Part shown: positions 3,874-62,221 of the stretch, piece after piece
Position numbering within the stretch: position 1 is the stretch's first letter
Layout of the letters: the number at the start of each line of letters is the position of its first letter
Assembly: GCF_024171925.1 (NCBI RefSeq)
Contig: NZ_JAMTCO010000004.1
Coordinates: forward strand, 417,743-481,742
DNA from: Actinokineospora diospyrosa
Lineage (GTDB): Bacteria; Actinomycetota; Actinomycetes; Mycobacteriales; Pseudonocardiaceae
Direction of reading: 5' to 3'
DNA: 64,000 nt
Made by a program: the position numbers and the translations under genes
Notes under the pieces: generated by a model
The model's database searches: none
Told to the model about the DNA's origin: nothing
Seen by the model: the letters and a program-made list of their open reading frames with translations, nothing else

Positions 3874-5445
3874 TTAGACGGTGAGGGACCAGGTGTCGAT
3901 GGTGCCGCTGTCGAAGCGGTAGACGTCTCGGACGCTCAGGCGCCAGGTGCCGTTCTTGGCTTCGCTGGAGAGGTTGGCGGTGTAGGTGGCTCGGACGTCG
4001 GCGGCGGGGTCGCCTGCGGAGGATTCCTTGAGGCGGTAGGCGGTGCCGTCGGGGGCGATGAGTTCTACGGCGAGGTCGCCGCGGTAGGGGTGGGTGATGG
4101 CCACCTCGACGGCGGCCGTGCTGGAGGCGTTGCCGGTGCAGCCGCTGATGGTGATGGAGCTGGTGGCGGCGGCGCCCGCGTCGGGGACGGCCACGTCGTC
4201 GCCGTTGGTCTGCTTGGCGCAGGTGGGGTCCGGGCCGGGGCCGGGGGTGGCGGTGATCTCCTTGGTGTAGAGCAGCTTGTTCGGTGAGCCGCTGCCCGCG
4301 TCGGTGACCTTGTTGGGGGTGGACATCGAGATCAGCGCGTTGGCGACGTCAGCGGGGCTGGCGTTCGGGTGGCCCTGCAGGTACAGCGCGGCAGCGCCCG
4401 CGACGTGCGGGGTGGCCATGGAGGTACCGGAGTTGCCCGCGGTACCGGTGTCGCTGCTGTAGGACAGCGAGGTGATGTTGGCACCCGGCGCGAAGATGTC
4501 CACGCAGCTACCGATGTTGGAGAAGCTGGACCGGCGGTCGCCCTGGTCGATGGAGGCGACGGTGATCGCCTCCGGGACGCGGGCCGGGCTGTAGTTGCAC
4601 GCGCTGGCGGCGTTGTTGTTGCCCGCGGCCACCGCGTAGACGAAGCCCGCGCGGATGGACGCCTGGATCTGCTCGTCGCCGATGCCGGTCTCGAACTGGC
4701 CGATGCTGATGTTGACCACGGCGGGCTTCACGCCGTTGGCGGTGATCCACTCGACCGCGTCCGACAGCAGCGAGTCCGGGCCGTTGTTGTCGCAGCCCAG
4801 CACCCGCAGCGCGACCAGCTTCGCCTTCTTGGCCACGCCGTAGGTCTTGCTGACCGCGGTGCCCGAGGTGTGCGTGCCGTGCCCGTTGCAGTCGGAGGCG
4901 TCGTTGTCCTTGTCCAGGAAGTCGTAGCCGGACTTGGCGCGGCCCTCGAAGTCCTGGTGGGAGATCCGCACGCCGCTGTCGACGCTGTAGACGGTGACGC
5001 CCTCGCCGGTGGCGTTGTACTCGTACTTGCGGTCGAGGGTGGTGTCCTTCTGGTCGACCCGGTCCAGACCCCACGTCGGGTTGGTCTGCACGTCGGCGCC
5101 GCGCATCTTGCCGTCCTGGTAGACGGTGCGCACGGCCGGGTCGGCGGCCAACCGCTTGGCCTGCTCCTCGGTCATGCCGTGCACCGAGTAGCCGCGCGCG
5201 GTGAGCTTGTAGAGCGAGGCGACCGTGCCGCCGTACTTCGAGGTCAGCGACTGGGCGCTGGCCTCGACCGCGGCGCCGGAGGCGGACGCGTCGCGCAGGG
5301 CGACGATGTACTGACCGGTGTAGTGCTCCTTGGCCTGCACGACGGTGCCGACCGCGGGCGCGGCACCGGCCGGGATGGCGATGACCACCCCGGCGCAGAC
5401 GACGCCAGCCGCGAGCGCGGCGAGGCCTGCTTTCCGACTCAACAT
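3874..5445 (-). CDS. Secreted subtilisin-like serine protease (S8) with P domain
   Basis: 523 residues. The start at ATG 5445 is chosen because AGGAG lies 7 nt upstream and a signal peptide follows at once (residues 1-29). Inhibitor I9 propeptide is about 41-115. The S8 catalytic triad is Asp156 (VYSVDSGV), His189 ([10 protein letters not shown]) and Ser342 ([12 protein letters not shown]), with oxyanion Asn in AAGNNN. A proprotein-convertase P-type beta domain closes the protein (about 430-523, ending [14 protein letters not shown]). Two Cys in the catalytic domain (DASDC, LGCD) are shared with its paralogues. It is divergent from a LAL regulator whose start lies 203 bp away, a layout repeated at 11.2-15.5 kb. 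Confidence 0.95.
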
Positions 5446-5648
5446 TGGTGAACTCCTTCGCGCGCGGTGAAAAGGGGCAGGGAAAGGGACGCACCGCCGC
5501 GACACCACAATGCGGCCCGGGTGCCCGGTGGAGAACTGATGAGCGGATTGATGGGTACCCCTATTCAAAGTCCGGAAATGGCAATGGCCGTCGGAAGTGG
5601 CAATGGCGGCGCTTCGCCGGGGAACCGGTCGCCGAGTACCGTGCGCTG
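5446..5648. promoter_or_regulatory. Divergent promoter region of S8 protease and LAL regulator
   Basis: The 203-bp gap must hold both promoters. The only striking element is TTGATGGGTACCCCTATTCAA (5548-5568), a near-palindrome with the perfect core GGGTACCC (5553-5560) and TTGA/TCAA ends. It is a candidate operator. No standard -35/-10 pair was recognised. Confidence 0.3.
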
Positions 5649-8483: not shown

Positions 8484-8556
8484 CACCGCTGTGGCTGCGT
8501 GGGTCCGGGGGACAAATCGGTCTCGGGGTTCGGCTTCGCCGTTGAAGGGCCTGCTC

Positions 8557-8572
8557 GTTGCCTGGCGGCAAC
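8557..8572. repeat. Small palindrome GTTGCC-type, inverted copy
   Basis: GTTGCC-tggc-GGCAAC, the reverse complement of the palindrome seen at 9245, 57615 and elsewhere. It bounds the left end of the repeat-rich gap, while forward copies bound the right end. Confidence 0.7.
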
Positions 8573-8602
8573 CTCGCGGCCCGAGCGGGGTGGTCCGGTG
8601 GG

Positions 8603-8745
8603 CTCGATGGGGCGGACTTCCTTTGCGCGGGGCCCCTACAACACCCGTGGCAGGTCCGCAAAGCAGGGGCCGAAAAGACTGGCCCTGCCGCGAGGAAACG
8701 CTACGGGTGTCGTCCCCCCGCGCAAAGGAAGTCCGCCCCATCGAG
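8603..8745. repeat. 143-bp giant imperfect hairpin element, copy A1
   Basis: Begins CTCGATGGGGCGGACTTC and ends with the exact complement. The outer 30 bp pair perfectly. Inside are a second imperfect stem (ACAACACCCGT against ACGGGTGTCGT) and a terminal stem-loop with an AGGGGCC arm and a GAAAAG loop. Near-identical elements occur at 9072 (reverse orientation) and 57399. No coding frame is conserved across the copies. It could be a non-autonomous mobile palindrome or a structured RNA/DNA element. Confidence 0.85.
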
Positions 8746-8779
8746 CAGTTGGCAGGGAGGCTTCCGACTCGTCCCGTGC

Positions 8780-8891
8780 AAGATCATCTGCCGCAAGAGC
8801 CCCCGATATACAGCCTATTGACGGATCCCGACAGAACCGGGGCAGCGATCACGGCCTGTGGACAACAGAACACGTTGTGGACAACCACCCG
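8780..8891. repeat. DnaA-box repeat unit, copy A
   Basis: Unit of about 112 bp, from AAGATCATCTGCCGCAAGAG to about 8891. It carries two exact copies of TGTGGACAA (8857-8865 and 8876-8884), the reverse complement of the actinobacterial DnaA box TTGTCCACA, with starts 19 bp apart. Three further units with the same spacing lie at 56318, 56679 and 57035. It is followed here by CCTGGACA(C/G)TCGGA-type short repeats up to about 9070. Confidence 0.85.
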
Positions 8892-9071
8892 ACACCCCGC
8901 CCAAGCCCGGACCCTGGACGTTAGGAGCCGAGGTGCTACCTCCAGTCCCGTCAGGTCCGCCCCAACCCACCCACTCAGCGCCTGGACACTCGGAACGGCC
9001 GGTGCCATCCCAGCCCGCCCTCGTCAGCCCTGCCAACCCACCTGGACAGTCGGAGTCGCTGGTGCCAACTG

Positions 9072-9214
9072 CTCGATGGGGCGGACTTGTTTTGCGTGGG
9101 GGGACAACACCCGTAGCGTCGCCTCGCAGCAGGGCCATGCTTTTCGGCCCCTGCTGTGCGGTTCTGCCACGGGTGTTGTAGGGGCCCCGCGCAAAACAAG
9201 TTGGCCCCATCGAG
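9072..9214. repeat. 143-bp giant imperfect hairpin element, copy A2 (inverted relative to A1)
   Basis: Same length and ends as copy A1 (CTCGATGGGGCGGACTTG ... CATCGAG). Its central loop (GGCCATGCTTTTCGGCC) is the reverse complement of the A1 loop, so A1 and A2 face each other around the DnaA-box unit. The stem has compensating changes (for example TGTTTTGC paired with GCAAAACA where A1 has TCCTTTGC paired with GCAAAGGA), suggesting that pairing is maintained. Confidence 0.85.
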
Positions 9215-9244
9215 CCGACCGCATTGCCGCGGATCGGGCCCGAT

Positions 9245-9300
9245 GTTGCCGCCAGGCAACGAGGCGTCCGCTCCGGCACGCCGAGCTCGCCGCCAGGCGA
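9245..9300. repeat. Two small palindromes of the GTTGCC-gcca-GGCAAC family
   Basis: GTTGCCGCCAGGCAAC at 9245-9260 and TCGCCGCCAGGCGA at 9287-9300, each followed by CGAGGC. The second keeps base pairing while changing TT/AA to TC/GA, a compensatory change. They lie just before the trypsin-like gene's 3' end. Apart from the listed repeats the gap 8484-9403 contains no credible gene. Confidence 0.7.
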
Positions 9301-9403
9301 CGAGGCCGACCCCAAGGCCTGCCGCACCCGAGCACGCAGCAGGGCCGGGCGGGAGGTCCTGCAGCCTCCCACCCGGCCCGTCGAACGCGATCACCTCACG
9401 GCG

Positions 9404-11197
9404 TTACCGCACGGTCAGCGTGTAGTTCGCACTGCCCGTCTTGCCGCCGCCGGTGGCTGTGACCTTGATGGTGTAGGTCCCTGGGGCCGCGGAGAAGGAG
9501 GCGGTCAGGAACAGCATCGAGGTCTGGCCACCGCTGATGGTCGCGGGGACCAATTGCGCGGTGACGCCCGAGGGGACACCGCTGGTGGAGAGGGTTACCT
9601 GGCCGGTGCCGCCGGTGACGCGGATCTGCGGGAAGGCGGCGCCGCCCTTGGCCACTGTGCCCGAGGACGGGGACAGGGTCACCGTGAGGCCACCGGTGGG
9701 GGGTTCCTGGCCGCCGTCGCCGACGGTCAGGGTGAGGGTGGTTTGCTTGCTCACCGAGCCCGAGGTGCCGGTGATGGTGACCCGGTACTCGCCCTTCGGG
9801 GTGCTGGCGGTGGTGGTGACCGTCAGCTTGCCGGTCTGGCCCGAGGTGATGGACGTGGGCTGGAAGACCGCCTCGGCGCCCGAGGGCAGGCCGCTGGCGG
9901 ACAGGGCCACGTTCACCGAACCGCCGCCGCCGACCGTGCTCGTGATGTTCGTCGACGCGGACTTGCCCGGGTCGACCTTGAGCGCGGCAGGGCTGACACC
10001 GAGGCCGAACTCGCCGCCGGGGCCGCCTTGGCCGATGGTGAGGGTCAGGTTGGCCTGCTTAGTGCCCGAAGCCGTCTTACCGGTGACGGTCAGCGTGTGC
10101 GTCCCGTCCGGGGTGCCGGAAGCGACGCTAAGCGACAGCTTCGCGCCCTCGCCCGTCTTGATCGACCCCGGCTGGAACACCGCCTCGACCCCGGAGGGCT
10201 GGCCGGTCACCGACAGCGCCACGTCCTCCGGCGTCGACCCGGCGGTCGTGTTGACCGCGACCGACCCGCTGGAGCCCGCGTTGACCCGCACCGAGGAGGG
10301 GTTCACCGCGACGCCGAACTCGGTGGTCGGCGGGGTGGTCGAGCCGACCTTCTCCTTGACCCAGTCGCCCATCTCGTTGTCCAGGCGGGCCCAGATCCCG
10401 TACCACTTGAAGTCCGAGCGGCTCCACGACGCGACGCCGACGAGCTTGCCGTTGACCACCAGCGGGCCGCCGCTGTCGCCGGGCAGGATCGTCGAGCGGC
10501 CGTCGGGGTAGCCCGCGCAGATCATGTACGCGGACTTGAACCCGGCGCCGACGCCCTGGCAGACCGAGTCGCCGTTGACGATCGGGAAGTTCTGCTTGTC
10601 CAGCGAGACGTCGGCCGGGCTGTCGTCGTGGGTCTTCTTGCCGTAGCCGATGCTCAGCGCCGAGTCGCCGACCTTCCACACGTTGCCCGCGTCGGCGGAG
10701 GTGGCGAACTTGGCCCACTTGTCCGGCGAGAGCGGGATGTCCTCGTTGGTGGTCACGACGGCGACGTCGTAGCCCTGGTCGAAGTTGACGTACTTCGGGT
10801 GCTTCTCGTACGACTTGGCCGTCAGCGTGGTGCCGGTGCCCACGGCCAGGTCGTCGAGCCCGTAGAGGAACGTCTTGGTGCCCGCCAGGTCGTAGCAGTG
10901 CGCCGCGACGAGGATGCTGCGCTTGCCGACGACCGAGCCGGTGCACGACTGGCCCTTGGGCCGCGAGCCGCCCTCGCGCAGCGCGCCGATGACCGGCGGG
11001 TAGTCCGACAGGGTGGCGTCGACGCCCTTGTAGATCTGGGCGGTGGCGTCGGGGGCGGGCACCGGGGTGTCGCCCTCGAAGTTGGCCGCCTTGGCGTTGG
11101 CCGGGGCGGCGCTGGCGACCGCGACGACCGCGAGCGCGCTGACCGCGACACCCACCGCCACGGCGCCGATGCGCACGGAGCGCTTGGACCTCAACAT
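9404..11197 (-). CDS. Secreted trypsin-like serine protease with three Ig-like repeats
   Basis: 597 residues from ATG 11197 (AGGAGA upstream, signal peptide 1-36). The S1 domain has His100 (VAAHC), Asp144 (GYDVAVV) and Ser242 (PGDSGGPL), with family cysteines in SCTGS and AAHC. From about residue 290 three Ig/cadherin-like beta repeats of about 95 residues follow. Each opens like FGVAVNPSSVRVNAG and contains VTGxPSGVEAVFQP-type and GxxxLTVT-type segments. They probably bind polymer or the wall. The gene starts 23 bp after the stop of the S8 protease on the same strand, so the two are likely an operon and secreted together. Confidence 0.93.
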   Translation of the reverse strand: MLRSKRSVRIGAVAVGVAVSALAVVAVASAAPANAKAANFEGDTPVPAPDATAQIYKGVDATLSDYPPVIGALREGGSRPKGQSCTGSVVGKRSILVAAHCYDLAGTKTFLYGLDDLAVGTGTTLTAKSYEKHPKYVNFDQGYDVAVVTTNEDIPLSPDKWAKFATSADAGNVWKVGDSALSIGYGKKTHDDSPADVSLDKQNFPIVNGDSVCQGVGAGFKSAYMICAGYPDGRSTILPGDSGGPLVVNGKLVGVASWSRSDFKWYGIWARLDNEMGDWVKEKVGSTTPPTTEFGVAVNPSSVRVNAGSSGSVAVNTTAGSTPEDVALSVTGQPSGVEAVFQPGSIKTGEGAKLSLSVASGTPDGTHTLTVTGKTASGTKQANLTLTIGQGGPGGEFGLGVSPAALKVDPGKSASTNITSTVGGGGSVNVALSASGLPSGAEAVFQPTSITSGQTGKLTVTTTASTPKGEYRVTITGTSGSVSKQTTLTLTVGDGGQEPPTGGLTVTLSPSSGTVAKGGAAFPQIRVTGGTGQVTLSTSGVPSGVTAQLVPATISGGQTSMLFLTASFSAAPGTYTIKVTATGGGKTGSANYTLTVR

Positions 11198-11220
11198 CGT
11201 CTTCTCCTGCTCAGGGGCGG

Positions 11221-12792
11221 TCACGGGGTCAACGTCCACGAGGTGATGGAGCCGGTGTCGAAGCGGTAGACGTCGGTGACCCGCAGCTTCCAGGTCCCGT
11301 TCTTCGCCTGGCCGGAGGCGTTGACGGTGTAGGTGGTGTGGATGCCCGCGCTGTCGCCGAGGCCGCCGGAGGGGCGCAGGTTGAAGACGGCGCCGGACGG
11401 GCCGACGAGGTCGATGGCCAGGTCAGCGGTGAACGCGTGGTCGATGTCGACCTTGACCGTGGTGGACGCCGAGGCGTTGCCGGTGCAGTTGGCCATGGTC
11501 ACCGGGGAGTCCGCGGACCCGGCGTCGGGGATGGCGACGGCGCCGGAGCTGGTCTGCGGGTTGCAGGTGCCCGGGTTGGGCGGGGTGCCGCCGAGTTCCT
11601 TGACGTAGAGCAGCTTGTTCGGCGAGCCCTTCGGGTCGCTGATCTTGTCCGGCGTGGTCGCCGCGAGCAGCGCCTGGGTGACCTGCGACGGGGTGCTGCC
11701 CGGCTTGGCGGTCAGGTACAGCGCCGCGGCGCCCGCGACGTGCGGGGTGGCCATCGAGGTGCCCGACATCGTCCCGGACGAGCCGTTCTGCAGCGTCGAG
11801 AGGATGTTGGTGCCGGGGGCGAACAGGTCCACGCAGCTGCCGTAGTTCGAGCCCTGGCCGTTGGTCCACAGCGAGCGCTTGTCGGCGTTGTCCGAGGCGC
11901 CGACGGTGATCGCGCTGGGGGTGCGGGCGGGGCTGGTCTGGCAGGCGTCGCCGTTGTTGTTGCCCGCGGCGATGGTCGAGGTGATGCCCTTCTGCACGAC
12001 CTTGGCCACCGCGTCGTCGACCGAGGAGTTCGAGCTGCCGCCGAGGCTGGCGGTCATCACCGAGTTGGCGCCCGCGTTGGCCGCGACCCAGTCGAAGCCG
12101 CCGATGATCTGCGACCACTGGCCCGAGCTCTGGCAGTCGAGCACCCGGACGGCGACGATCTTGACCTTCTTCGCCACGCCGTAGGTGGCGCTGCCGACGG
12201 TGCCCGCGACGTGCGTGCCGTGGCCGTGGCAGTCGGAGGCGTCGGCGTCGTTGTCGATGAAGTCGCGCCCGGAGGTGACGCGGCCGCCGAAGTCGGAGTG
12301 GCCGCGGTAGACGCCGGTGTCCACGACGTAGACGGTCGCGCCCTCGCCGTCGTTGGGGTAGGCGTACTTGCTGTCCGCGGGCAGGTTGCGCTGGTCGATG
12401 CGGTCCAGGCCCCAGGTCGGGTTCGGCTGCTCGCCGAAGCCGTGCGCGGTGCCGTCCTGCTCGACGTAGGCCACCTTCGGGTCGGCGGCCAACCTGCGGG
12501 CCTGCTGCTCGGACATCGACACCGAGAACCCGCTCAGCGCGGCGGAGTAGGTCAGCTTGCGCTGGCCGCCGTACTGGGCCGTCAAGTCCGCGGACACGGT
12601 GTTGACCGACTGGGCGCCCACGACGTCCTTGAGCACCACGATGTAGCTGCCAGCGACGGAGCCGGGGACACCGGCGCTGCGGATCGGCCCCTCGGCCGGT
12701 GCGGCGAGCGCGGGGGCGACCGCGACGGCGAGCGCCGCGCCCGCCACCACGCCCGTCACGGCGATGAGCCGCGTCAAATGCCTGTAATTCAT
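11221..12792 (-). CDS. Secreted subtilisin-like serine protease (S8) with P domain
   Basis: 523 residues. Start ATG 12792 (GGAG 6 nt upstream) is preferred over GTG 12807. Signal peptide 1-31, I9-type propeptide about 48-115. The S8 triad is Asp158 (VYVVDTGV), His191 (CHGHGTHVAGT) and Ser346 ([13 protein letters not shown]). The P domain covers about 430-523 and ends RFDTGSITSWTLTP. It is a close paralogue of the S8 gene at 3.9 kb in length and architecture. It is first gene of a two-gene operon with the trypsin-like protease and divergent from a LAL regulator 219 bp away. Confidence 0.95.
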   Translation of the reverse strand: MNYRHLTRLIAVTGVVAGAALAVAVAPALAAPAEGPIRSAGVPGSVAGSYIVVLKDVVGAQSVNTVSADLTAQYGGQRKLTYSAALSGFSVSMSEQQARRLAADPKVAYVEQDGTAHGFGEQPNPTWGLDRIDQRNLPADSKYAYPNDGEGATVYVVDTGVYRGHSDFGGRVTSGRDFIDNDADASDCHGHGTHVAGTVGSATYGVAKKVKIVAVRVLDCQSSGQWSQIIGGFDWVAANAGANSVMTASLGGSSNSSVDDAVAKVVQKGITSTIAAGNNNGDACQTSPARTPSAITVGASDNADKRSLWTNGQGSNYGSCVDLFAPGTNILSTLQNGSSGTMSGTSMATPHVAGAAALYLTAKPGSTPSQVTQALLAATTPDKISDPKGSPNKLLYVKELGGTPPNPGTCNPQTSSGAVAIPDAGSADSPVTMANCTGNASASTTVKVDIDHAFTADLAIDLVGPSGAVFNLRPSGGLGDSAGIHTTYTVNASGQAKNGTWKLRVTDVYRFDTGSITSWTLTP

Positions 12793-52824: not shown

Positions 52825-55503
52825 GTGGTTGAAGACAGCTATCGGCAATACATCGAGCCCGGCGCCGCGGGTGCCGCCGGGCCGTACTCGACCGCCACCG
52901 TGCACAACCACTACGGGCGGCGCGGGTACGGGCTCGAGGAGTTCCCGCGTCCCAGCAGTCCCGGGAACGCATGGCTGATGGCGCAACCGAGCCGCTTGCT
53001 GGACGCCCGAGCCCAGGTCGTGGGTTTCCTCGGCAGGCAAACGGAATTGGCCCAGCTGGCGGACTGGCGCGATGCCCGGGACGCCAACCGCTCCGTCCTG
53101 TTGTTGCACGCGCCAGGCGGGCAGGGGAAGTCCCGGCTCGCAGCCGAGTTCGCCGAACGGTCGCGTGATCCGCGATTGCCCAACGCAGAGCGGTGGCGGG
53201 TCTCGCAGGCGCGGTTGGACGGTGGCGCGGTGCGGCGAGTGTCCGAAAAGGACGAACCGGTCGGCGCGGGCGCGATGCTGATCGTCGACTACGCGGACCG
53301 CTGGGCGCACGACGAACTGGCCGCACTGCTGGCCGAGCCCGCGCTCAACCGGGCCGGACCCACCCGGATCCTGCTGATCGGGCGCACGGTGCGGTGGTTC
53401 GCCGCCATGCGAGCGGCCCTGGCGGAGCAGCGGACCTGGGCCGGCGACCTGCTGCTGCCACCGCTGCGGGACGAGCGCCAGGCGATGTTCGCGGCCGCGC
53501 TCGACCGGTTCAGCGCGCCGGACCTGTACGACCTCGACACGGTGCCCGCAACGGTTCCGTTGACCCACCCCGACTTCGGACTGGCCCTGACCGTGCAGAT
53601 GGCCGCCCTCGTCGCTGTCGACGCCCAGCACAGGGGCACGCGAGCGCCGACCACGCCGCACGAGCTGTCCGCCTATCTGCTCGACCGCGAATACCAGGCG
53701 TGGCAACGGTTGTTCGACGCCGGGGGCCAGGGTCAGGACTACACCACCCGACCCGCGGTCATGGCCAAAGCCGTCTTCACGGCCGTGCTGACCGGCGCGG
53801 TCAGCCACAAGACCGGGGCCTCGGCGGTGCGGGAACTCGACTTGCCTGGCCACCCGCAGGAACTCCTATTGGACCACCGTTTCTGCTATCCGCCGACCGA
53901 CCGTTCGTTGGTGCTGGAACCCCTCTACCCCGACCGACTAGCCGAGGACTTCCTCGCCTTGCTGACCCCCGGGCACGACATCAGCGCCTACGACCCCGAC
54001 CCGTGGACGCTCGACGTCCCTGCCTCTCTCCTGCGCGAATCCACCGGCCTGCGCACGACCATCGTGAGCCGAGCCATGACTTTCCTCGCCGCAGCGGCGG
54101 AACGATGGCCGCACATCGGTGAGAAGACGCTGTACCCGTTGCTGCGCCACGACCCGCACCTCGCGGTCGAGGCAGGCAATGCCGCACTCGTCGCGTTGGC
54201 CTCGATTCCGGACCTGCCTTTCGAAGTCCTCCAGCAGGTTGACAAGGAGTTGCCGCTGGACCACCACATAGACCTCGACGTGGGAGCGGCCGCGATCACG
54301 GACGTCCTCGCACCGCTCTTGCTCGACCAAGCGCAGGACCCGGCGGTACGCGTGTCCCTGCACGGCTACTACAGCAGCAGACTCGCCGCCGCCGGACGAC
54401 ACCATGAAGCCCTCGAACAGTCGCTGCTGGCTGCGCCGCTAGTCGAGGAACTGCTCGCGGCGGATCGTGCGACTCATCTTCCGATCATCGCAATACAACT
54501 GGGAAATCACGCGATCCGGCTGGCTCAAGCAGGGCGGAACCAGGAGGCTGCCACGACCTCCCGTCGCTCTGTCGACTACTACGGCGAGCTGGCGGCCACC
54601 GACAACACCTGGCTACCCGAGGCTGTCCGGGTGATGAGCAACCACGCGGCTCGCCTCGCCACTCTCTCACAGCATGAAGAAGCAGCGCGGTTCTCGCTCC
54701 GCGCTGTCCACCTTCGCGAGGAGCTCGTCAGGCAAGACCGTGCTGCCCATCTCCCCGGGCTGGCCGTGTCCGTGCTCAGCCATGCGCGCAGGCTGGCGGA
54801 ACTGCGGCGTTTGGCGGAAGCACTGGTCTACTCAGGACTCGCGGTGGACCACCTCACGGAGCTGGTCGACGCTGATCGCGCCACCCACCTGCCCGAGCTC
54901 ATCATCGCGCTCGGGATCCACGGTGAGCGACTCGGCGAACTCGGACGCCGAGAAGAGGCGCTGGCCCTGTCACGGCGCGCCTTCGACCTGGCCGAGTCTT
55001 TGGTCGAGGCGAACCACGACGCCTACCTGCCCCTCCTGTTGGCCGCAGCCGACCGCCACGCAAGCGATCTGACACTGCTGGGGCGCGTGCACGAGGCTAT
55101 CCCGGTATCTCAACGAAACGTCGAGCTCGCCGAGGAATTGGTGGGCATCAACCGTTCCGGCGAGCTCCACCGGGTGGTGAGAGCCTTCACCACCCACGCC
55201 ACGCGGCTGGCGTTGACCGGGCACCGCGAGCCCGCGTTGGAACACGCACAACGCGCGGTCGCCGTGAGCGAGGAGATCTCCCCGCTCGAGTTGGCCGGAG
55301 CGTTGCTGGGCCACACCGCGGTGCGAATCCTGTTGACCACGGACTTGGCACAAGCCGAGAGTGACGCGACCCGGGCGCTCACCATCTACCGCAAGCTGGG
55401 CTCGTCTGAACCCGCCGCGTTCGCCGACCACGTGCGCATGGCGGAGACCTTCCTCGCCAAGACCCGCGCCTTGCTCAACCGCGACCAAAGGGGAGAAAGA
55501 TGA
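52825..55503 (+). CDS. STAND-like ATPase with TPR repeats
   Basis: 892 residues from GTG 52825. The N-terminus GAAGAAGPYSTATVHNHYG resembles the tail motif of the preceding cyclase-like protein. FLGRQTELAQLADW opens the ATPase, Walker A is APGGQGKS (96-103), and MLIVDY (151-156) the Walker B. A long helical linker and about 10 TPR-like repeats follow (EALEQSLLAAPLVEELLAAD, EEALALSRRAFDLAESLVEA), the repeats being near-identical in layout. No effector domain is fused. The gene overlaps the lipoprotein gene by ATGA. Probable sensor/scaffold of a defence-like system. Confidence 0.85.
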   Translation: MVEDSYRQYIEPGAAGAAGPYSTATVHNHYGRRGYGLEEFPRPSSPGNAWLMAQPSRLLDARAQVVGFLGRQTELAQLADWRDARDANRSVLLLHAPGGQGKSRLAAEFAERSRDPRLPNAERWRVSQARLDGGAVRRVSEKDEPVGAGAMLIVDYADRWAHDELAALLAEPALNRAGPTRILLIGRTVRWFAAMRAALAEQRTWAGDLLLPPLRDERQAMFAAALDRFSAPDLYDLDTVPATVPLTHPDFGLALTVQMAALVAVDAQHRGTRAPTTPHELSAYLLDREYQAWQRLFDAGGQGQDYTTRPAVMAKAVFTAVLTGAVSHKTGASAVRELDLPGHPQELLLDHRFCYPPTDRSLVLEPLYPDRLAEDFLALLTPGHDISAYDPDPWTLDVPASLLRESTGLRTTIVSRAMTFLAAAAERWPHIGEKTLYPLLRHDPHLAVEAGNAALVALASIPDLPFEVLQQVDKELPLDHHIDLDVGAAAITDVLAPLLLDQAQDPAVRVSLHGYYSSRLAAAGRHHEALEQSLLAAPLVEELLAADRATHLPIIAIQLGNHAIRLAQAGRNQEAATTSRRSVDYYGELAATDNTWLPEAVRVMSNHAARLATLSQHEEAARFSLRAVHLREELVRQDRAAHLPGLAVSVLSHARRLAELRRLAEALVYSGLAVDHLTELVDADRATHLPELIIALGIHGERLGELGRREEALALSRRAFDLAESLVEANHDAYLPLLLAAADRHASDLTLLGRVHEAIPVSQRNVELAEELVGINRSGELHRVVRAFTTHATRLALTGHREPALEHAQRAVAVSEEISPLELAGALLGHTAVRILLTTDLAQAESDATRALTIYRKLGSSEPAAFADHVRMAETFLAKTRALLNRDQRGER

Positions 55504-56213
55504 GGACCCGACTGCTGTGGCTGCTACTCCCCCTACTCCTGGTGAGCTGCGCCCGCCGCGGGCATACCGACCACCACGACTCATCAACACCCCACCGCTC
55601 CGCATCACACCCCTCCGCCGAAGTAGACGGCGGCGCGGCAGTGGAGCTACCAGTACCCGAGATCGACCTCGGCGCACCGGCCGCGGTGCCTACTACGACA
55701 CCACCGAAGCCCACCGACACAACAGAAGAGGAACTACAGGCGATCCCCGCCGGAACCTGCTTGCCCCTATACCGAGACGGCCGCGAATGGAGCGTGTCCA
55801 CCCTCCCCGCCGCCATCTCCTGCGAAAGCGACCGGGCAGGAGTCTTCCTGGTCACACAAACCGGCGCCACGTCCTGCCCCAACGGCGTCGGACAGGACGT
55901 GTGGTCGTACTACTCAAGGATCACCGGCAACACCACAACCCTGTGCCTCAACCGGGTATGGACAAAGAACTACTGCGTCCTGGCCGAACAGGTCGGCGAC
56001 ACCGTCAAGGCCATCGGCTCATCCACCGCCGTGGACTGCCGAGCGACCACTGCACCCAACCCCTACAACCAAGTACTCATCATCTCGGGCGCCTACAAAG
56101 CCCCGGCTGGCGCCAACCCCAGACACTGCATGCTGAACGCCAGAGACACACGCCCCTACTGGACCCTCCTCGCCAACGACGGCAACACCCTAGTGTGCTT
56201 CACCACCCGCTGA
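55500..56213 (+). CDS. Lipoprotein of unknown function, third gene of the cyclase/STAND operon
   Basis: 237 residues. Signal peptide with lipobox LLVSC (Cys17). A Pro/Thr-rich linker (about 20-80) is followed by a 150-residue domain with about eight cysteines (AGTCLPLY, AISCESD, ATSCPNGV, TTLCLNRVW, NYCVLAE, AVDCRAT, RHCMLNA, LVCFTTR), probably disulphide-bonded outside the membrane. No known family. It overlaps the STAND gene by 4 bp (ATGA), so the cytoplasmic ATPase and this surface protein are made together. It may be the extracellular sensor. Confidence 0.8.
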   Translation: MRTRLLWLLLPLLLVSCARRGHTDHHDSSTPHRSASHPSAEVDGGAAVELPVPEIDLGAPAAVPTTTPPKPTDTTEEELQAIPAGTCLPLYRDGREWSVSTLPAAISCESDRAGVFLVTQTGATSCPNGVGQDVWSYYSRITGNTTTLCLNRVWTKNYCVLAEQVGDTVKAIGSSTAVDCRATTAPNPYNQVLIISGAYKAPAGANPRHCMLNARDTRPYWTLLANDGNTLVCFTTR

Positions 56214-56317
56214 ACCCACCCCGGTCACCCGACTGCAGAAAACTCCGGCACCACCCCGCCCCCACCTGAGTCGGCCCCTGGACACCCGGAACTAGCTGGC
56301 TCCTACCCACCCCACGC

Positions 56318-56430
56318 AAGATCATCTGCCACAAGAGCCCCCGACATACAGCCTAACGAGAGGGTCCGACAGAACCGGGCCAGCAATTGCGGCCTGTGGA
56401 CAACAAACCACGTTGTGGACAACCACCCGC
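56318..56430. repeat. DnaA-box repeat unit, copy B1
   Basis: Carries TGTGGACAA at 56395-56403 and 56414-56422. It is first of three units in a tandem array with a period of about 360 bp; between units lie degenerate 60-bp repeats built on CCTGGACAC(C/T)CGGA and GTCAGGTCCGCCCCA. The gap 56214-57714 holds no credible gene. Confidence 0.85.
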
Positions 56431-56678
56431 GAACCCAACCCCAGGACCCACAAACCTGCCAGCGCCACCCAACCCAGCGAGCTGACCCACCCAAACCCGG
56501 ACCCTGGACACTCAGAAGCCGCCGGCGCCACCCCAACCCCCGCCAGGACCGCCCCAACCCGGCCAGCCCCTGGACACCCGGACCCAGCGGTGCCAGCCCG
56601 GCTGCCGTCAGATCCGCCCCAGCGCACCTACCCAGCACCTGGACACCCGGAACTCGCTGGCTCCAACCCGCCCAACAC

Positions 56679-56790
56679 AAGATCATCTGCCACAAGAGCC
56701 CCCGATACACAGCCTAACGAGGAAGCCCGACAAAACCGGGCCAGCGATCGAGGGCTGTGGACACCAGAGCACGTTGTGGACAACCGCCAG
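56679..56790. repeat. DnaA-box repeat unit, copy B2
   Basis: TGTGGACAC (one mismatch) at 56756-56764 and an exact TGTGGACAA at 56775-56783, again with starts 19 bp apart. Unit starts 361 bp after copy B1. Confidence 0.85.
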
Positions 56791-57034
56791 CCCACCCAGC
56801 CCCCGGGACACTCAGAAGCCAAGGCGCCACCCAGCACCCGCCAAGACCACCCCACCCGGCCAGCCACCGGACACCCGAACCCGGCGGTACCACCCCAGCT
56901 GCCGCCGAATCCACCCCAGCCCACTTGGCCGACCATTGGACACTCGAACCCAGCGGTGCCAGCTGGACTTCCGTCAGGTCCGCCCCAGCCGACCCCTGGA
57001 CGCACCGGAAGTCGCTGGGTTCTGCTCGCCCCGC

Positions 57035-57147
57035 AAGATCATCTGCCGCAAGAGCCCCCGATATACAGCCTAACGAGGAAGCCCGACAGAACCGGGGCAG
57101 CCATCGAGGCCTGTGGACAACAGAATACGTTGTGGACAACCACCCGC
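57035..57147. repeat. DnaA-box repeat unit, copy B3
   Basis: Two exact TGTGGACAA boxes at 57112-57120 and 57131-57139. Unit starts 356 bp after copy B2. It is followed by further short repeats and then hairpin element B. Confidence 0.85.
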
Positions 57148-57398
57148 CAGTCCACCCAAACCTGGCCCCTGGATCCTCGGACCCAGCGGTGCCAACTCAG
57201 CGCCCGTCAGGTCCGCCCAACCCACCTAGCCGACCACTGGACGCTAGGAAGATCCGGTGCCACCCCAGCCCGCCCTCGTCGACCTTGCCAGCCCAGCCCC
57301 TGGACACTCGGACCCTGCGGTGCCATCCCGGCTGCCGTCAGGTCCGCCCCAGCCCACCTTCCCAGCGCCTGGACAGTCGGACTCGCTGGTGCCAGGTG

Positions 57399-57540
57399 CT
57401 CGATGGGTGGACCTGTTTTGTGTGGGGGGACGGCAGCCGTAGCGTCGGTAGCGGACAGGGCCATGCTTTTCGGCCCCTGCTGTGCGGTCCTGCCACGGGT
57501 GTCGTAGGGGCCCCGCACAAAACAGGTCCACCGCATCGAG
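57399..57540. repeat. 142-bp giant imperfect hairpin element, copy B
   Basis: Same organisation as copies at 8603 and 9072: ends CTCGATG / CATCGAG, T-rich inner stem (TGTTTTGTG with CACAAAACA), ACGGCAGCCGT/ACGGGTGTCGT stem, and the loop GGCCATGCTTTTCGGCC shared with copy A2. The stem sequence differs from A1/A2 at several pairs, mostly with compensating changes. Confidence 0.85.
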
Positions 57541-57573
57541 CAAAGCTCGAAAAGTCGCGGATCGGGCGCCGAG

Positions 57574-57673
57574 GTCGCCGCTAGGCGACGAGGCCGTCCG
57601 ATCCGGTGGCCGAGGTTGCCGCCAGGCAACGAGGCGTCCGATCCCGGGTCGCCGAGGTCGCCGCCAGGCAACG
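57574..57673. repeat. Three small palindromes of the GTTGCC-gcca-GGCAAC family
   Basis: GTCGCCGCTAGGCGAC (57574-57589), GTTGCCGCCAGGCAAC (57615-57630) and GTCGCCGCCAGGCAAC (57658-57673), each flanked by CGAGG. The same palindromes flank the 8.5-9.4 kb repeat block. Confidence 0.75.
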
Positions 57674-57714
57674 AGGCCGACCCCGGAGCCGAAGGTGGAG
57701 GCAAGCCGCCGCAC

Positions 57715-58161
57715 TCAATCGTCGTGCAGGGAACGGATCATGCTTCGCAAGATCCGAAACGCATCCGCCCGCTCAGCCTCACTCATCCCCGCCAGCATCC
57801 TGACCTCAACTGCACGAACCGCCGCCGTAGCCTTCTCCAGCTTTCGCCTGCCGAGGGGCGTGAGCCGCGCGGGTAAGACCTTCCCGACCGACGCCTCCGC
57901 GGGCCTGCTCACCTGTCCCTCCCGCTCCAGCGCCTGGAGCAGAACGTTCATCGTCTGCCGGGTCACGAAAGCGCCTCGAGCGAGTTCGGAGTTCGACAAG
58001 CCCGGGCGTTGGGCCAGCAGCTCGAGGCAGGAGTAGTGCGTCACGCTCATCCCGAGTGGCCGCAGGACCTCGTCCATGGCGGCACGCAGGGCGCTGGACG
58101 CCTCTTTCAGCAGGTAGCCCAGTGACGTGTCCAGGTCGACACCAGCTCCGCGTTGCGTCAT
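57715..58161 (-). CDS. MarR-family repressor
   Basis: 148 residues, winged helix with MSVTHYSCLELLAQRPGLSN, FVTRQTMNVLLQALE (recognition helix) and GKVLPARLTPLGRRKLEK (wing). The N- and C-terminal helices form the dimer. It is divergent from a VOC protein gene, with two operator-like inverted repeats between them, one beginning at its own start codon, so it likely represses both genes and releases on binding a small phenolic-type ligand or on oxidation. Confidence 0.93.
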   Translation of the reverse strand: MTQRGAGVDLDTSLGYLLKEASSALRAAMDEVLRPLGMSVTHYSCLELLAQRPGLSNSELARGAFVTRQTMNVLLQALEREGQVSRPAEASVGKVLPARLTPLGRRKLEKATAAVRAVEVRMLAGMSEAERADAFRILRSMIRSLHDD

Positions 58162-58176
58162 GTCAGTATCCTGACA
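58161..58176. promoter_or_regulatory. MarR operator 1
   Basis: Perfect inverted repeat TGTCAG-tatc-CTGACA, overlapping the MarR start codon. Confidence 0.8.
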
Positions 58177-58187
58177 TACAGTGAGCC

Positions 58188-58205
58188 GTGTCAGAAGACT
58201 GACAC
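58188..58205. promoter_or_regulatory. MarR operator 2
   Basis: Perfect inverted repeat GTGTCAG-aaga-CTGACAC with the same half-site and 4-bp spacer as operator 1; the two centres are 28 bp apart. It lies 19 bp upstream of the VOC gene start. Confidence 0.8.
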
Positions 58206-58223
58206 AGTGGAAAGGACCTCGCC

Positions 58224-58592
58224 ATGCCCGTCACCGGACCGGACTTCATCTCACTCCAAGCGCGCGACCTCGGCGCTTCGCAGGCGTTCTACGAGCGGTA
58301 CCTCGGTCTTGTCCGCTCCCCGGCAGGACCTCCGCACGCCGTCGTCTTCGAGACGAAACCGATCGCGTTCGCGCTCCGCGACATCGTTCCCGGCACCGAT
58401 CTCGCGTCCGCCGCCCGGCCCGGCATCGGTGCCGCGATCTGGCTGCACGCCACGGACGTCCAGGCCATCCACGATGCTCTAGTCGCCGACGGCCACTCCA
58501 TCGTCTCCGCGCCGATCGACGGCCCTTTCGGACGGACCTTCACCCTCGCCGACCCCGACGGCTACCACATCACGCTCCACGACCGCGCCTGA
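58224..58592 (+). CDS. VOC-family (glyoxalase/bleomycin-resistance-type) protein
   Basis: 122 residues, two beta-alpha-beta-beta-beta modules: DFISLQARDLGASQAFYERYLGLVRS at the N-terminus (split DFISLQARDLGAS / QAFYERYLGL) and PFGRTFTLADPDGYHITLHD at the C-terminus. The expected C-terminal metal-ligand Glu is replaced (YHITLHD), and the N-terminal position is Ser/Leu, so a metal-free sequestering role is as likely as catalysis. Controlled by the divergent MarR. Confidence 0.88.
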   Translation: MPVTGPDFISLQARDLGASQAFYERYLGLVRSPAGPPHAVVFETKPIAFALRDIVPGTDLASAARPGIGAAIWLHATDVQAIHDALVADGHSIVSAPIDGPFGRTFTLADPDGYHITLHDRA

Positions 58593-58602
58593 CACCCGAG
58601 CG

Positions 58603-59673
58603 TCACCGCGAGCACACGGCCGCCTCCACGGCCGCCATCGTGTGATCAACCTCCACCATCTCGTTGACCGTCACGTTCACCGCCACCCCCTCCGCCGTGA
58701 CACCCCCGCGGGTCCGGAACCCCGGCAACGACCCGCCATGCCCCCAGATCTCCTTCCCGCAAGACAACATGATCCGCATCAACCCCAACCCGTACTCGGC
58801 ATTCGGCAACGCCGCGGCAGGCACTGTCCGCTTCATCTCCGTGAGTTGGGTATCAGGCAACACCCGCCCGCCCAGCAGCGCTATGTAGAACCGGTTCAGA
58901 TCCGCGCCGGTGCTCACCATCGCCCCGGCTGCCCCAGCCATCGTCGTGTTCTGGTCGGTGTAGTCGACCAGCACACCGTCAACCTCCTGATACCCGCGGG
59001 GATGCCGACCGCGGATCCCCGTCTCGGACGGCCGAGGGAAGTACGTCGCGCCAAGGCCAAGCGGCACGATCAGCCTGCGCGTGATCTCATCGCCAACCGA
59101 GCGGCCCGTGACCTGCTCGATGACCATCCCGGCCAGTGCGTAGTTCGTGTTCGAGTACGCCCAGTCGGTACCTGGCGCGAAATGCGGCCGCAGGGTCATC
59201 GCGGCGTCCACTTGTTGGCGTGGAGTTGTTGCGCTCCAACGGTTGTCGTAGAGATCCAACAGATCCAGGTAGTCCACCAACCCGCTCGTGTGCTGGAGCA
59301 GCTGCCGGATCGTCACCGCGTGGAGGACGCCGGGGAGGTAGTGCTCGGCGGGGGCGTCCAGCACAATTCTGCCCTCGGCTACCAGTTGGAGCATGACCGT
59401 TGCGACGAAAGCCTTGGTGTTGCTGCCGATGCGGATCTGGGCTTGGTGCGGGAAGGGACCGCCGGTGCGCAGGTCGCCCACGCCGCGGGTGATCTCGTGG
59501 CTGCGGCCCCGTTCGGTGATCACGGCCTGCGCGCCGGGCACCCCGTCGGCCTTGATCAGGTCGTCCAGGGCCCGGGTGACCGGTGAGCGGTCCGGTGTGC
59601 GGCCCGGGCTGGTCGCGGCGACCACCCCGAGGCCTGCGGTGAGCGCGACCGCGACGAACCTGTTGGTGAACAA
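58603..59673 (-). CDS. Serine hydrolase (beta-lactamase/D-Ala-D-Ala carboxypeptidase family)
   Basis: 356 residues from TTG 59673 (GAGGAG upstream). Signal sequence 1-22. Catalytic Ser84-x-x-Lys87 in GSNTKAF, Tyr173-Ser-Asn175 (YSNTNYALAG), and the third box WGHGGSLPGF. It belongs to the class C/DD-peptidase (serine hydrolase) family, secreted. It lies 26 bp downstream of an ABC permease, suggesting a shared transcript and a role in cell-wall stress or resistance. Confidence 0.9.
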   Translation of the reverse strand: MFTNRFVAVALTAGLGVVAATSPGRTPDRSPVTRALDDLIKADGVPGAQAVITERGRSHEITRGVGDLRTGGPFPHQAQIRIGSNTKAFVATVMLQLVAEGRIVLDAPAEHYLPGVLHAVTIRQLLQHTSGLVDYLDLLDLYDNRWSATTPRQQVDAAMTLRPHFAPGTDWAYSNTNYALAGMVIEQVTGRSVGDEITRRLIVPLGLGATYFPRPSETGIRGRHPRGYQEVDGVLVDYTDQNTTMAGAAGAMVSTGADLNRFYIALLGGRVLPDTQLTEMKRTVPAAALPNAEYGLGLMRIMLSCGKEIWGHGGSLPGFRTRGGVTAEGVAVNVTVNEMVEVDHTMAAVEAAVCSR

Positions 59674-59698
59674 GGGACTCTCCTCAGGTGGTGCGCGC

Positions 59699-62221
59699 TC
59701 AGTCGCGCAGGCCGATGGCGTCGATCGGTCGGTTGCGCAGGCTGAGCCGGGTGGGGACGGTGATCGCGAGCAGGCCGAGCAGCACGGCGGAGCCGATGAT
59801 GCCGAGGTACACCAGCACCGGACCGGAGGGCACCGGGTCGCCGGTGAGGCCGAGGCCGAGGAAGGTCAGCGGCAGCAGCGGGATGAGGCTGCCGACCACG
59901 ACCGCGATGCCGCCGACCATCAGCGCCTCGGTGCGCATCATGCGCTTGACCTGCCGTCTGGTGCCGCCGATGAGGCGGAGGAGGGCGAACTCGCGGACCC
60001 GTTGCGCCGTGGTCATCACCAGGGTGTTGGCGACCGAGATGACGATGTAGCCGAGGACGACACCGAACGCGACAACGTTGACCCAGAACTGTTGTTGTTG
60101 CACCGCTGTGCCTGCCGCCTTCATCGCGGTGCGGTCGCCGACAACGAGGCTGGGGAACTGCGTGCTGAGGCCCTGCAGTGCCTGAGTGACCGCAACGTTG
60201 TCCGCGGTGGGCGCCAGCCTGACCAGGATGGAGCTGTCGACCTGGTCGGTGCTGTGCGCGCGGGCGGTCGCGGCGGGGAGCAGGAAGTCGCCGAACGCGA
60301 GGTCGTGGGTGTAGGTCGCGACCAAGCGCAACTCGGTCGAGCTGCCGTCGCCGAGGTGGAGCGGGACGGGGTCGCCCAGGTTCTTGTCCATCCAGCTCGC
60401 CTGTGCCTTGCTCAGCGCAATGGTGTCGCCGGTCAGTGCGGTGATGTCTCCGGTCACCGAACCGAGGTCAACGGTGCCGCGCACCTGGTCGCCGTCCACA
60501 CCGAGGGCGGCTCCCTGGTGAAGTTCCAGGTCCTCGCCCATCTTTGTCGTGGTGAACACCTGGGTGCGCACCATAGGGGTCGCGGCCGCAACGCCGGGGA
60601 TTTGTCGCACCGCGTGCGCGGCGGCGGGCGGCAGGCCACCGGCCTGGCTGGTGATGACGTAGTCCGCGACGGTGCTCAGCTCGGTCTGCCGCTGCACGGC
60701 CGCAGTGTGCGTGGTCTGGCTGAAGAACTGGGCGACCGCGAAGCCGACCGCGAGCATGAGCGGGGTGATCGCCGCGGCCAGCCGCCGGGTGTTGGCGCGG
60801 CTGTTGGCCGCCGCCAGGTAGCCGCCGACCCGCGAGACCCGGCCGAGCGGACCGGCGAGCAGGCGGATCGCCGCACCGACCACCCGCGGCCCGAGCGCGC
60901 CCACGCCGATCACGATCACCAGCGCGGACAGCACGCTGAGCCCGGCCACGATCGGGCCGTGCAGGAACAGCGGCAGGGTCGACCCGACCACGCCCGCGAC
61001 CAGCGCGACCACCCCGACCGCGGTCCGCACCCGGCCCAGCTCGCGCCGCTGCACCGAGGCCTCACCCAGCGCCTCGACCGGCGAGATCCGCGACGGTCCG
61101 CGCCCGGCGGTGTACGCGGCGAGCCTGGCCGCGCCCACCCCCAGCAGCAGGGCCCCCACCAGCGGGAACGGCCCGAGCGCGAGCTCGAAGTCCGCGGGGA
61201 TGATGCCGATCCGGGCGAAGGCGTCGCGCAGCAGCCACGCGACCGGGATCCCACCGACCGCGCCGAGCAGGCCAGCGACTCCGGTCACCAGCAGAGTCTC
61301 GGCGCCGATCAGCGACCGGATCTGCCTCGGCGTCGCCGCGATGGCCCGCAGCAGGGCGAACTCCCGGCGCCGTTGCGCCACCGACAGCGCGAGGGTGCTG
61401 CTCACCACGAACACCATGACCAGCACGACCACGCCCCCGAAGGAGGCCGCCAGCGCGGTGAGGATCGCCCGCGCCTGGCTGACGTCGGCGAACTCGACCG
61501 TGCCCCGGTCGTTGCCCGTCGCCACCTCCAGACCGGCCCCGGCCAGCGCCCGCTCGACCCCCGCGGCGTCGCCGAGCACCCCGATCGCGTGCACCCGCCC
61601 CGGCCTGCCGAACAACGCGCTCGCCTGCTCCTCGGCGAACCACAGCGCCGACTGCCGGGTCAGCCCGTCCGCCGCCGCGATGCCGCTCACCTGGTACTCC
61701 CGGGTGCCCAGCGGCGTCTCCACCCGCACCCGCTGCCCGGGCGTCACCCCGGCCCGCCCCGCCAGGTTCGCGTCCAGCACGACCTGGTCGGACCCGGTCG
61801 GGGCGCCACCCGCGGTGAGCGGGAACGGCCCGAGCACGGCCGCGGCCCAGTTGTGCCCGCGCGTGCCCGCCAGCACCGGACCGGCCTCGGTGACCAGCGT
61901 GGCGGGGAAGTCCACCTCGCCGACCGCCGCGCGCACCCCCGGCACCGCCGCGATCCGCCCGGCCAACCCGGCGTCGACCGTCGCCTGTTCCGCCGCGGGC
62001 AGCGCCCCCATCGCCTGGACCCCCTCGGGCCGCACCGACTGGTTGGCGCCCACAACGGCCGCCGCGGCCGCGTAGCGCTGCGTGGGCACCCCGGCGCGGA
62101 TGCCGGACTCGATCAGCACCCCGCAGGCGCCGACCAGCGCGGTCCCGCACAACACGGCCAGGAACGCGCCCACGAACCCGCTCAGCCGGGTCCTGATCGT
62201 CTGCAACGAGAGACTCAGCAC
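59699..62221 (-). CDS. FtsX-like ABC transporter permease
   Basis: 840 residues from GTG 62221. Architecture of the FtsX/MacB-type (type VII) permeases: TM1, large extracellular domain, TM2-4, a second duplicated half (TM5, extracellular domain about 500-700, TM6-8). Conserved SxxxALLRAIGATPRQIRSLIGAE-type loop (SLIGAETLL) and its C-terminal copy RVREFALLRLIGGTRRQVKR. The start follows the ATPase stop by 3 bp. It works mechanically rather than as a channel; likely in peptide efflux or lipoprotein/peptide release. Confidence 0.93.
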   Translation of the reverse strand: MLSLSLQTIRTRLSGFVGAFLAVLCGTALVGACGVLIESGIRAGVPTQRYAAAAAVVGANQSVRPEGVQAMGALPAAEQATVDAGLAGRIAAVPGVRAAVGEVDFPATLVTEAGPVLAGTRGHNWAAAVLGPFPLTAGGAPTGSDQVVLDANLAGRAGVTPGQRVRVETPLGTREYQVSGIAAADGLTRQSALWFAEEQASALFGRPGRVHAIGVLGDAAGVERALAGAGLEVATGNDRGTVEFADVSQARAILTALAASFGGVVVLVMVFVVSSTLALSVAQRRREFALLRAIAATPRQIRSLIGAETLLVTGVAGLLGAVGGIPVAWLLRDAFARIGIIPADFELALGPFPLVGALLLGVGAARLAAYTAGRGPSRISPVEALGEASVQRRELGRVRTAVGVVALVAGVVGSTLPLFLHGPIVAGLSVLSALVIVIGVGALGPRVVGAAIRLLAGPLGRVSRVGGYLAAANSRANTRRLAAAITPLMLAVGFAVAQFFSQTTHTAAVQRQTELSTVADYVITSQAGGLPPAAAHAVRQIPGVAAATPMVRTQVFTTTKMGEDLELHQGAALGVDGDQVRGTVDLGSVTGDITALTGDTIALSKAQASWMDKNLGDPVPLHLGDGSSTELRLVATYTHDLAFGDFLLPAATARAHSTDQVDSSILVRLAPTADNVAVTQALQGLSTQFPSLVVGDRTAMKAAGTAVQQQQFWVNVVAFGVVLGYIVISVANTLVMTTAQRVREFALLRLIGGTRRQVKRMMRTEALMVGGIAVVVGSLIPLLPLTFLGLGLTGDPVPSGPVLVYLGIIGSAVLLGLLAITVPTRLSLRNRPIDAIGLRD

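Follow-up and report, generated by a model that had tools for sequence, protein, structure and literature searches.

Paired DnaA boxes phased to a -10-like hexamer in dispersed intergenic repeats of Actinokineospora diospyrosa: a possible DnaA-linked promoter module

Short, dispersed, non-coding repeats of the REP, ERIC and BIME kinds lie at gene ends. A cluster of DnaA boxes outside oriC was reportedly described in Streptomyces by Smulczyk-Krawczyszyn in 2006, and a PafBC-type consensus of TTGTCRGTG, 8 nt and TAnnnT is said to go back to Gamulin in 2004. According to excerpts of the papers cited here by PMC number, PafBC works through a -26 element and makes contact with SigA (PMC11804915), and mycobacterial promoters of this kind are named RecA-NDp (PMC6789036). 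Excerpts likewise state that DnaA is able to activate or repress transcription (PMC8203912), that domain I of actinomycete DnaA dimerises (PMC13270200), and that E. coli DnaA favours box pairs 2-3 bp apart and has a regulon which includes repair genes (PMC11317965).

Here we describe pairs of DnaA boxes in a 64,000-nucleotide stretch of the A. diospyrosa genome, the whole of which we refer to as the window, and follow them through this genome and those of its relatives. Literature searches on DnaA box plus Actinokineospora and on DnaA box plus PafBC found no papers. Among the matches listed for the wider literature, titles and the beginnings of abstracts mention no such repeats, most subscription journals lying outside this search; in the literature searched we found no earlier description of the arrangement.

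Box pairs in the window and the identity of the motif

The window contains four units, each with two minus-strand TTGTCCACA boxes spaced 19 bp from start to start. Seven of the eight boxes are exact, and the box at 56756 reads GTGTCCACA, with one mismatch. This recount agrees with a sequence-only reading of the same DNA, whose positions are correct as unit starts but not as box positions, the first box lying 77 bp further on. The tandem period of about 360 bp given there was measured as 361 and 356 bp between successive units, and Tandem Repeats Finder reports a 361-bp period across 56280-57149. At up to one mismatch, the window holds 22 box matches against 7.87 expected, a number reached by none of 100 shuffles. 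Two things had been overlooked: a -10-like hexamer about 39 nt downstream of the boxes, and the nesting of the units in larger intergenic repeats. The features are as follows.

56414..56422, minus strand: DnaA box 1 (distal), tandem copy 1, exact TTGTCCACA
56395..56403, minus strand: DnaA box 2 (proximal), tandem copy 1, exact, 19 bp off box 1
56366..56371, minus strand: TGTCGG, a -26-like (PafBC-like) element by its sequence, tandem copy 1, 0.90-1.00 conserved in 67 aligned copies
56350..56355, minus strand: TAGGCT, -10-like hexamer, tandem copy 1, 39 nt past box 2
56775..56783, minus strand: DnaA box 1, tandem copy 2, exact match
56756..56764, minus strand: DnaA box 2, tandem copy 2, GTGTCCACA, one mismatch
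56711..56716, minus strand: TAGGCT, -10-like hexamer, tandem copy 2, 39 nt past box 2
57131..57139, minus strand: DnaA box 1, tandem copy 3, exact match
57112..57120, minus strand: DnaA box 2, tandem copy 3, exact match
57067..57072, minus strand: TAGGCT, -10-like hexamer, tandem copy 3, 39 nt past box 2
8876..8884, minus strand: DnaA box 1, isolated copy, exact match
8857..8865, minus strand: DnaA box 2, isolated copy, exact match
8812..8817, minus strand: TAGGCT, -10-like hexamer, isolated copy, 39 nt past box 2
56280..57149, no strand: three units in tandem, repeating every 356-361 bp, in a gap between convergent ORFs
8554..9263, no strand: isolated copy between two inverted arms, each holding a 145-bp near-palindrome

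The array gap is flanked by ORFs 55500-56213 (+) and 57715-58161 (-), the isolated-copy gap by ORFs 5445-8483 (+) and 9404-11239 (-). Both gaps are therefore convergent, having a (+) ORF on one side and a (-) ORF on the other. Pfam searches with the neighbouring ORFs identified an AAA-LuxR regulator, a trypsin-like protein and a MarR regulator, and matched no family to a 237-aa neighbour.

The motif had been taken for the actinobacterial DnaA box, and two observations bear this out. An excerpt of PMC4285127 tabulates TTGTCCACA as the DnaA box of S. coelicolor and M. tuberculosis, and the gap between dnaA and dnaN of A. diospyrosa itself (dnaA in L235, contig C7) contains six boxes in 223 bp, on both strands and with at most one mismatch to TTGTCCACA or TTATCCACA. 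DnaA likely binds to the pairs. This does not make the units origins. As the earlier reading had stated, dnaA is not nearby: a DnaA protein query (tblastn) had no match in the window. An oriC identity was rejected on this ground and because each unit has only two boxes on the same strand. The units also lack oriC anatomy, that is, a mixed-orientation cluster with an unwinding region, unlike the strain's own oriC, which additionally carries a TACTACTACTG stretch. Of the origin-like mobile element suggested earlier, the origin-like half thus falls away.

Copies across genomes and the box-hexamer geometry

The genome scan for pairs at 19-bp spacing that had been proposed returned 317 pairs at up to two mismatches in the 8.11-Mb genome (29 contigs), against one for the reversed pattern. 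At up to one mismatch, there are 253 pairs at 19 bp and one at a spacing of 22 bp. The window holds 4 pairs where the genome mean predicts 2.5 (64000/8110824 x 317). Because copies occur genome-wide, the window is average and not a local cluster. The claim of a special cluster, with pairs commoner here than elsewhere, therefore fails; a regulatory or titration role stays plausible.

In the family, the pair is present in 144 of 200 genomes at up to one mismatch, and 23 of the 200 have at least 10 pairs; the 22-bp control spacing occurs in 66 of the 200, with a maximum of 4. A further tally found the pair in 39 of 61 genomes, A. diospyrosa included. In a phylum sample it was present in just three of 396 genomes, A. 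diospyrosa and two of the same order, and 80 named loci (1.06 Mb, from actinobacteria and a few others) yielded a single pair, in A. globicatena. The comparison with relatives recommended earlier also revealed that the copy number spans 253 down to 0 among congeners (at most one mismatch). The 19-bp spacing makes up most exact pairs (gaps 0-30) in A. globicatena (G005; 44/47), G009 (28/34), G028 (13/16) and G010 (9/11), but is not dominant in G002 (8/15), G012 (2/5) and G013 (3/15); G034 and G016 were left out of this tally.

Among 158 pairs, mostly from loci chosen for having exact pairs, TANNNT follows 38-40 nt past the second box in 131 (68 at 39, 38 at 40 and 25 at 38 nt), with a mean of 0.01-0.05 at the remaining offsets. 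In 27 pairs there is no TANNNT at 38-40 nt. When pairs are required to be less than 60% alike in the next 36 nt, 71 non-redundant pairs remain, 47 of which carry the hexamer at 38-40 nt (22 at 39, 11 at 40, 14 at 38); outside the genus the count is 22 of 39. In stretches sampled blind to the boxes and taken together with the window, TANNNT accompanies 6/7 paired boxes, four of the seven being the window's own, versus 2/232 single boxes; without the window, the figures are 2/3 and 2/218. Conversely, of 76 A. diospyrosa copies picked by the hexamer region, many of them from loci chosen earlier for their boxes, 66 are preceded at a distance of 39 or 40 nt by a pair whose two boxes together have no more than two mismatches. 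The boxes thus keep a set distance from a promoter-like hexamer, as expected of a DnaA-regulated promoter, only weakly so in G028 (1/10), G010 (3/8) and G070 (3/8).

We aligned 67 of the 76 A. diospyrosa copies, keeping those in which both boxes together have at most three mismatches and leaving out nine. Conservation is 0.90-1.00 across the boxes apart from the first base of box 2, at 0.58. Within the spacer, positions 1-3 and 10 are conserved at 0.88-1.00 and positions 4-9 at 0.43-0.79; a fixed 19-bp spacing with a partly variable spacer argues for a promoter module. TGTCGG (0.90-1.00) sits 10 nt before the hexamer. The motif TGTCRG-N10, allowing one mismatch, is present in 33/33 copies of A. 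diospyrosa, 4/6 of G006, 3/9 of G151 and 0/27 of G016. In G009 the middle of the hexamer varies while TA...T is kept, TTGAC occurs in that region in 14/18 copies, and most loci read TTGACA-N15-TANNNT-CAGGAATGGG. G016, G151, G070 and some Actinokineospora share TAGRCTGG, then a GC-rich stretch ending in GGGTGGGGG. We considered this GC-rich type as a possible terminator of the facing gene; 5/26 facing genes end less than 50 nt away, the others 71 to about 1,050 nt. In the box-blind sample, a second element type of A. diospyrosa has TTATCCACA 50 nt before TAGACT, with TGTCGG between them (six cases; L225, L226, L232, L240); an inverted half site often comes after the TTATCCACA. Among the elements with a box pair, types that differ in their flanks have the same box-hexamer geometry.

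A known structured RNA was rejected as the product of the units: in Rfam, no match reached the gathering score for window positions 54000-60000 and 20 loci, and four folds of the stretch that would be transcribed first show no more structure than usual (z 0.4 to 1.3).

Gene context, surrounding repeats and turnover

Gene contexts were called with a rough gene finder that uses GC by codon position. At 33 of 157 pairs, a plausible co-directional ORF begins 45-450 nt past the first box. Pfam searches with 20 of these 33 ORFs identified DNA-related proteins (RecA, SSB, a ComEA-like HHH protein, uracil-DNA glycosylase, a ComM-like Mg-chelatase family) and others including malic enzyme, alanine racemase, a Tex protein and an immunity protein; two had no family. 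One common downstream gene family was rejected in view of this diversity. Five ORFs of 80 codons or more start no further than 15 nt from the hexamer; all five have their start codon 6 or 7 nt beyond it, a distance that fits leaderless transcripts. The recA copy in G151 reads TTGTCCACA-N10-TTGTCCACA, 39 nt, TTGTCGGTG-N8-TAGCGT and carries the full PafBC-type motif. A recA query over all loci examined matched only L279. Many pairs lie between convergent genes: 17/30 in A. diospyrosa (19/30 with an earlier version of the gene finder) and 18/35 for one element type in three genomes of other genera.

The units are nested in composite intergenic repeats that include a palindrome of 145 bp and a repeat of 59-65 bp. 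Inverted arms at 8554-8769 and 9048-9263, 216 nt each and complementary at 180/216 positions, flank the isolated copy. The 145-bp near-palindromes (GCTCGATGGGGCG...) occur at 8602-8746, 9071-9215 and about 57397-57542, and the first of these folds with a z of -12.9 as RNA and -11.1 as DNA. Near-palindromes of a similar kind are found close to box units in A. globicatena and G006 loci, and the 145-bp near-palindrome looks like a separate dispersed element. The tandem array has one palindrome, on one side, and no terminal repeats bounding the box unit. A 59-nt repeat occurs in six copies at 56501-57354, between and past the box units; at other places in the genome, too, units have repeats of this kind downstream. 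In the convergent gap, a 42-bp sequence (GCCGAGGTCGCCGCCAGGCAACGAGGC...) is also repeated in tandem about 2.8 times at 57563-57679, and similar units occur at 9240-9306.

A conserved position was rejected at the two sites tested, the isolated copy and the MarR gene. At the isolated-copy site, A. globicatena carries a different type of element, twice and in opposite orientation, with an intact box, a degraded box 19 bp on, TTGACA, and TAGTGT or TAGTCT. No exact box lies between the same two genes in NBRC 105648, nor at this site in A. spheciospongiae, where only about 75 bp separate the aligned parts. The NBRC 105648 site (L122, 8980-10300) contains a different palindrome, GGCGGTTGTCAAGGC...GCCTTGACAACCGC. 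Within 1.5 kb of the MarR gene that adjoins the array, neither A. globicatena nor G010 has the array; the G010 site carries one box with TGTCGG-N10-TAGCAT, and in A. globicatena the opposite flank of the gene has a pair at 19-bp spacing that contains a single mismatch. G013 was not counted as an orthologous site, its match stopping short of the MarR gene. The repeats are thus gained and lost while the box-hexamer geometry is kept. The unconserved sites and the inverted arms would suit the mobile half of the earlier suggestion. A phage or plasmid origin was rejected, as a 131-bp unit had no match in phage and plasmid records and the exact module pattern none in viral contigs.

A candidate promoter module, its alternatives and known systems

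The arrangement is real, genus- and family-wide. The reading we prefer, tentatively and at a shade below an even chance, is that of a promoter module linked to DnaA which has multiplied in the form of an intergenic repeat, often located between convergent genes. Copy number, spacings, hexamer position and the roughly called gene context are observed; DnaA binding, activation, use of PafBC and titration are inferred, in the following way. A unit would be a promoter read on the TTGTCCACA-bearing strand, and its boxes, 19 bp apart, would hold two neighbouring DnaA molecules. With its inner edge 39 (38-40) nt before TANNNT, the pair would cover roughly -80 to -52 from the start point, from where DnaA may contact RNA polymerase as an activator and not as a blocker. 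TGTCGG, 10 nt before the hexamer in A. diospyrosa, resembles a PafBC DNA-damage promoter; TTGAC occupies this region in G009, a congener. A few copies in the family directly head genes (recA, SSB, the ComEA-like HHH protein and others). Most of the A. diospyrosa copies looked at are intergenic, with convergent genes on either side in more than half; there they would make short transcripts or none, and their several hundred boxes may also titrate DnaA.

Several observations argue against a promoter module: a position between convergent genes in 17/30 A. diospyrosa pairs, which is odd for promoters; the 27/158 pairs in which the hexamer is missing and the ordinary structure of the would-be transcripts; a PafBC-like TGTCRG-N10 that is general only in A. 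diospyrosa and G006; and a 19-bp spacing that is not dominant in G002, G012 and G013, together with a K. albida oriC which an excerpt of PMC4210621 reports to be without classic DnaA boxes. This last report would also suit a different regulator that reads a DnaA-like site, a reading we regard as very improbable. The approximately 1-kb 3' flanks of dnaA in six genomes (G006, G028, G073, G107, G125, G204) have only 2-8 boxes at up to one mismatch, with no 19-bp spacing among the boxes listed there or in the A. diospyrosa oriC, where one pair is 20 bp apart. Yet all six flanks exceed the background density of 0.11-0.25 boxes per kb (three genomes), and the repeat copies use TTATCCACA as well as TTGTCCACA, matching the variation in the classic box TT(G/A)TCCACA (PMC4210621, excerpt).

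Titration is likely either a side effect of the promoter module or its rival. As a rival, it holds that the main role of the pairs is to soak up DnaA on the chromosome, in an amount that doubles shortly after initiation, and that transcription from the hexamer is unimportant; we consider this unlikely. The several hundred pairs in one genome favour it, as does their position: relative to a uniform distribution, pairs are shifted towards the origin in four of the five genomes examined, and many origin-proximal boxes are what titration sites call for (KS test on distance to dnaA, raw p values: G006, 0.067, n=47; G028, 0.0024, n=31; G073, 0.0006, n=17; G125, 0.00045, n=9; G204, 0.0017, n=7, its length being rounded). 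These genomes were chosen for having the listed places on one contig and at least seven pairs, G107 (6 contigs) and A. diospyrosa (29 contigs) being left out. Evenly spaced samples of single boxes show no origin bias in G125 (20 against 24) and G073 (46 against 43). The E. coli chromosome titrates DnaA, and its boxes build up in the vicinity of oriC (PMC12371093, excerpt). The lean is compatible with titration, but K. albida, of the same family, has a conserved core region around oriC (PMC4210621, excerpt), and such a core could also produce it, so that the bias may merely mark the core. Titration also leaves unexplained the hexamer in 47/71 non-redundant pairs and sits poorly with a copy number that falls from 253 to 0 among congeners; a strand bias against the fork was rejected, with 20/47 in G006.

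A serious rival, albeit quite unlikely in our view, is a selfish or passively spread MITE- or REP-like intergenic repeat, in which the pair is kept for spread or maintenance and has no use for the host. The composite repeats around the units, the inverted arms of the isolated copy, the lack of conservation at the isolated-copy gap and the MarR gene, and the frequency of copies between convergent genes all point this way. The tandem array, with its single palindrome and missing terminal repeats, does not, nor does the lack of matches in phage and plasmid records and viral contigs; moreover, element types with unlike flanks share one geometry, and ordinary genes follow some of the pairs. Since the window makes up so much of the sampled paired boxes, and in view of the inverted arms, we gave less weight to the promoter module and more to the selfish repeat.

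The promoter module can be extended to a broader proposal that we consider doubtful: in Pseudonocardiaceae, DnaA bound in pairs would generally activate, from upstream, a distinct class of promoters, coupled to the PafBC DNA-damage switch in some species, that covers recA and other repair genes, and the hundreds of convergent-gap copies would sense and buffer DnaA. The module suggests that replication and gene expression may be wired together in this soil bacterium. If so, the amount of free DnaA would be tied to the transcription of repair genes and to many intergenic start sites in one family, and the positional rule of box pair, 39 nt and -10 would predict DnaA-linked promoters from sequence. 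Strains that span 0 to more than 250 copies in one genus offer a ready comparison for the DnaA titration model.

Compared with known systems, the repeats are short, dispersed, non-coding and located at gene ends, as REP, ERIC and BIME repeats are, but unlike these they contain paired DnaA boxes together with a -10-like hexamer. They share with the cluster reported in Streptomyces TTGTCCACA boxes outside oriC; the boxes there are reportedly clustered, whereas here they sit in dispersed repeats with a phased hexamer. PafBC or RecA-NDp promoters likewise have a -26 element before a -10 hexamer and a recA-type gene (PMC6789036, PMC11804915, excerpts), but here a DnaA box pair lies upstream and most copies are without a gene. 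Chromosomal titration in E. coli is similar in its many boxes, denser towards oriC (PMC12371093, excerpt); the difference is that here it is pairs in repeats that lean towards oriC, single boxes showing no such lean in the two genomes where they were sampled. The double DnaA boxes of E. coli resemble the present units in having two boxes, a favoured pairing and a replication and repair regulon, but they lie 2-3 bp apart in 16 bound regions (PMC11317965, excerpt), whereas the boxes described here are separated by 10 bp, occur in up to hundreds of pairs and are phased to a hexamer.
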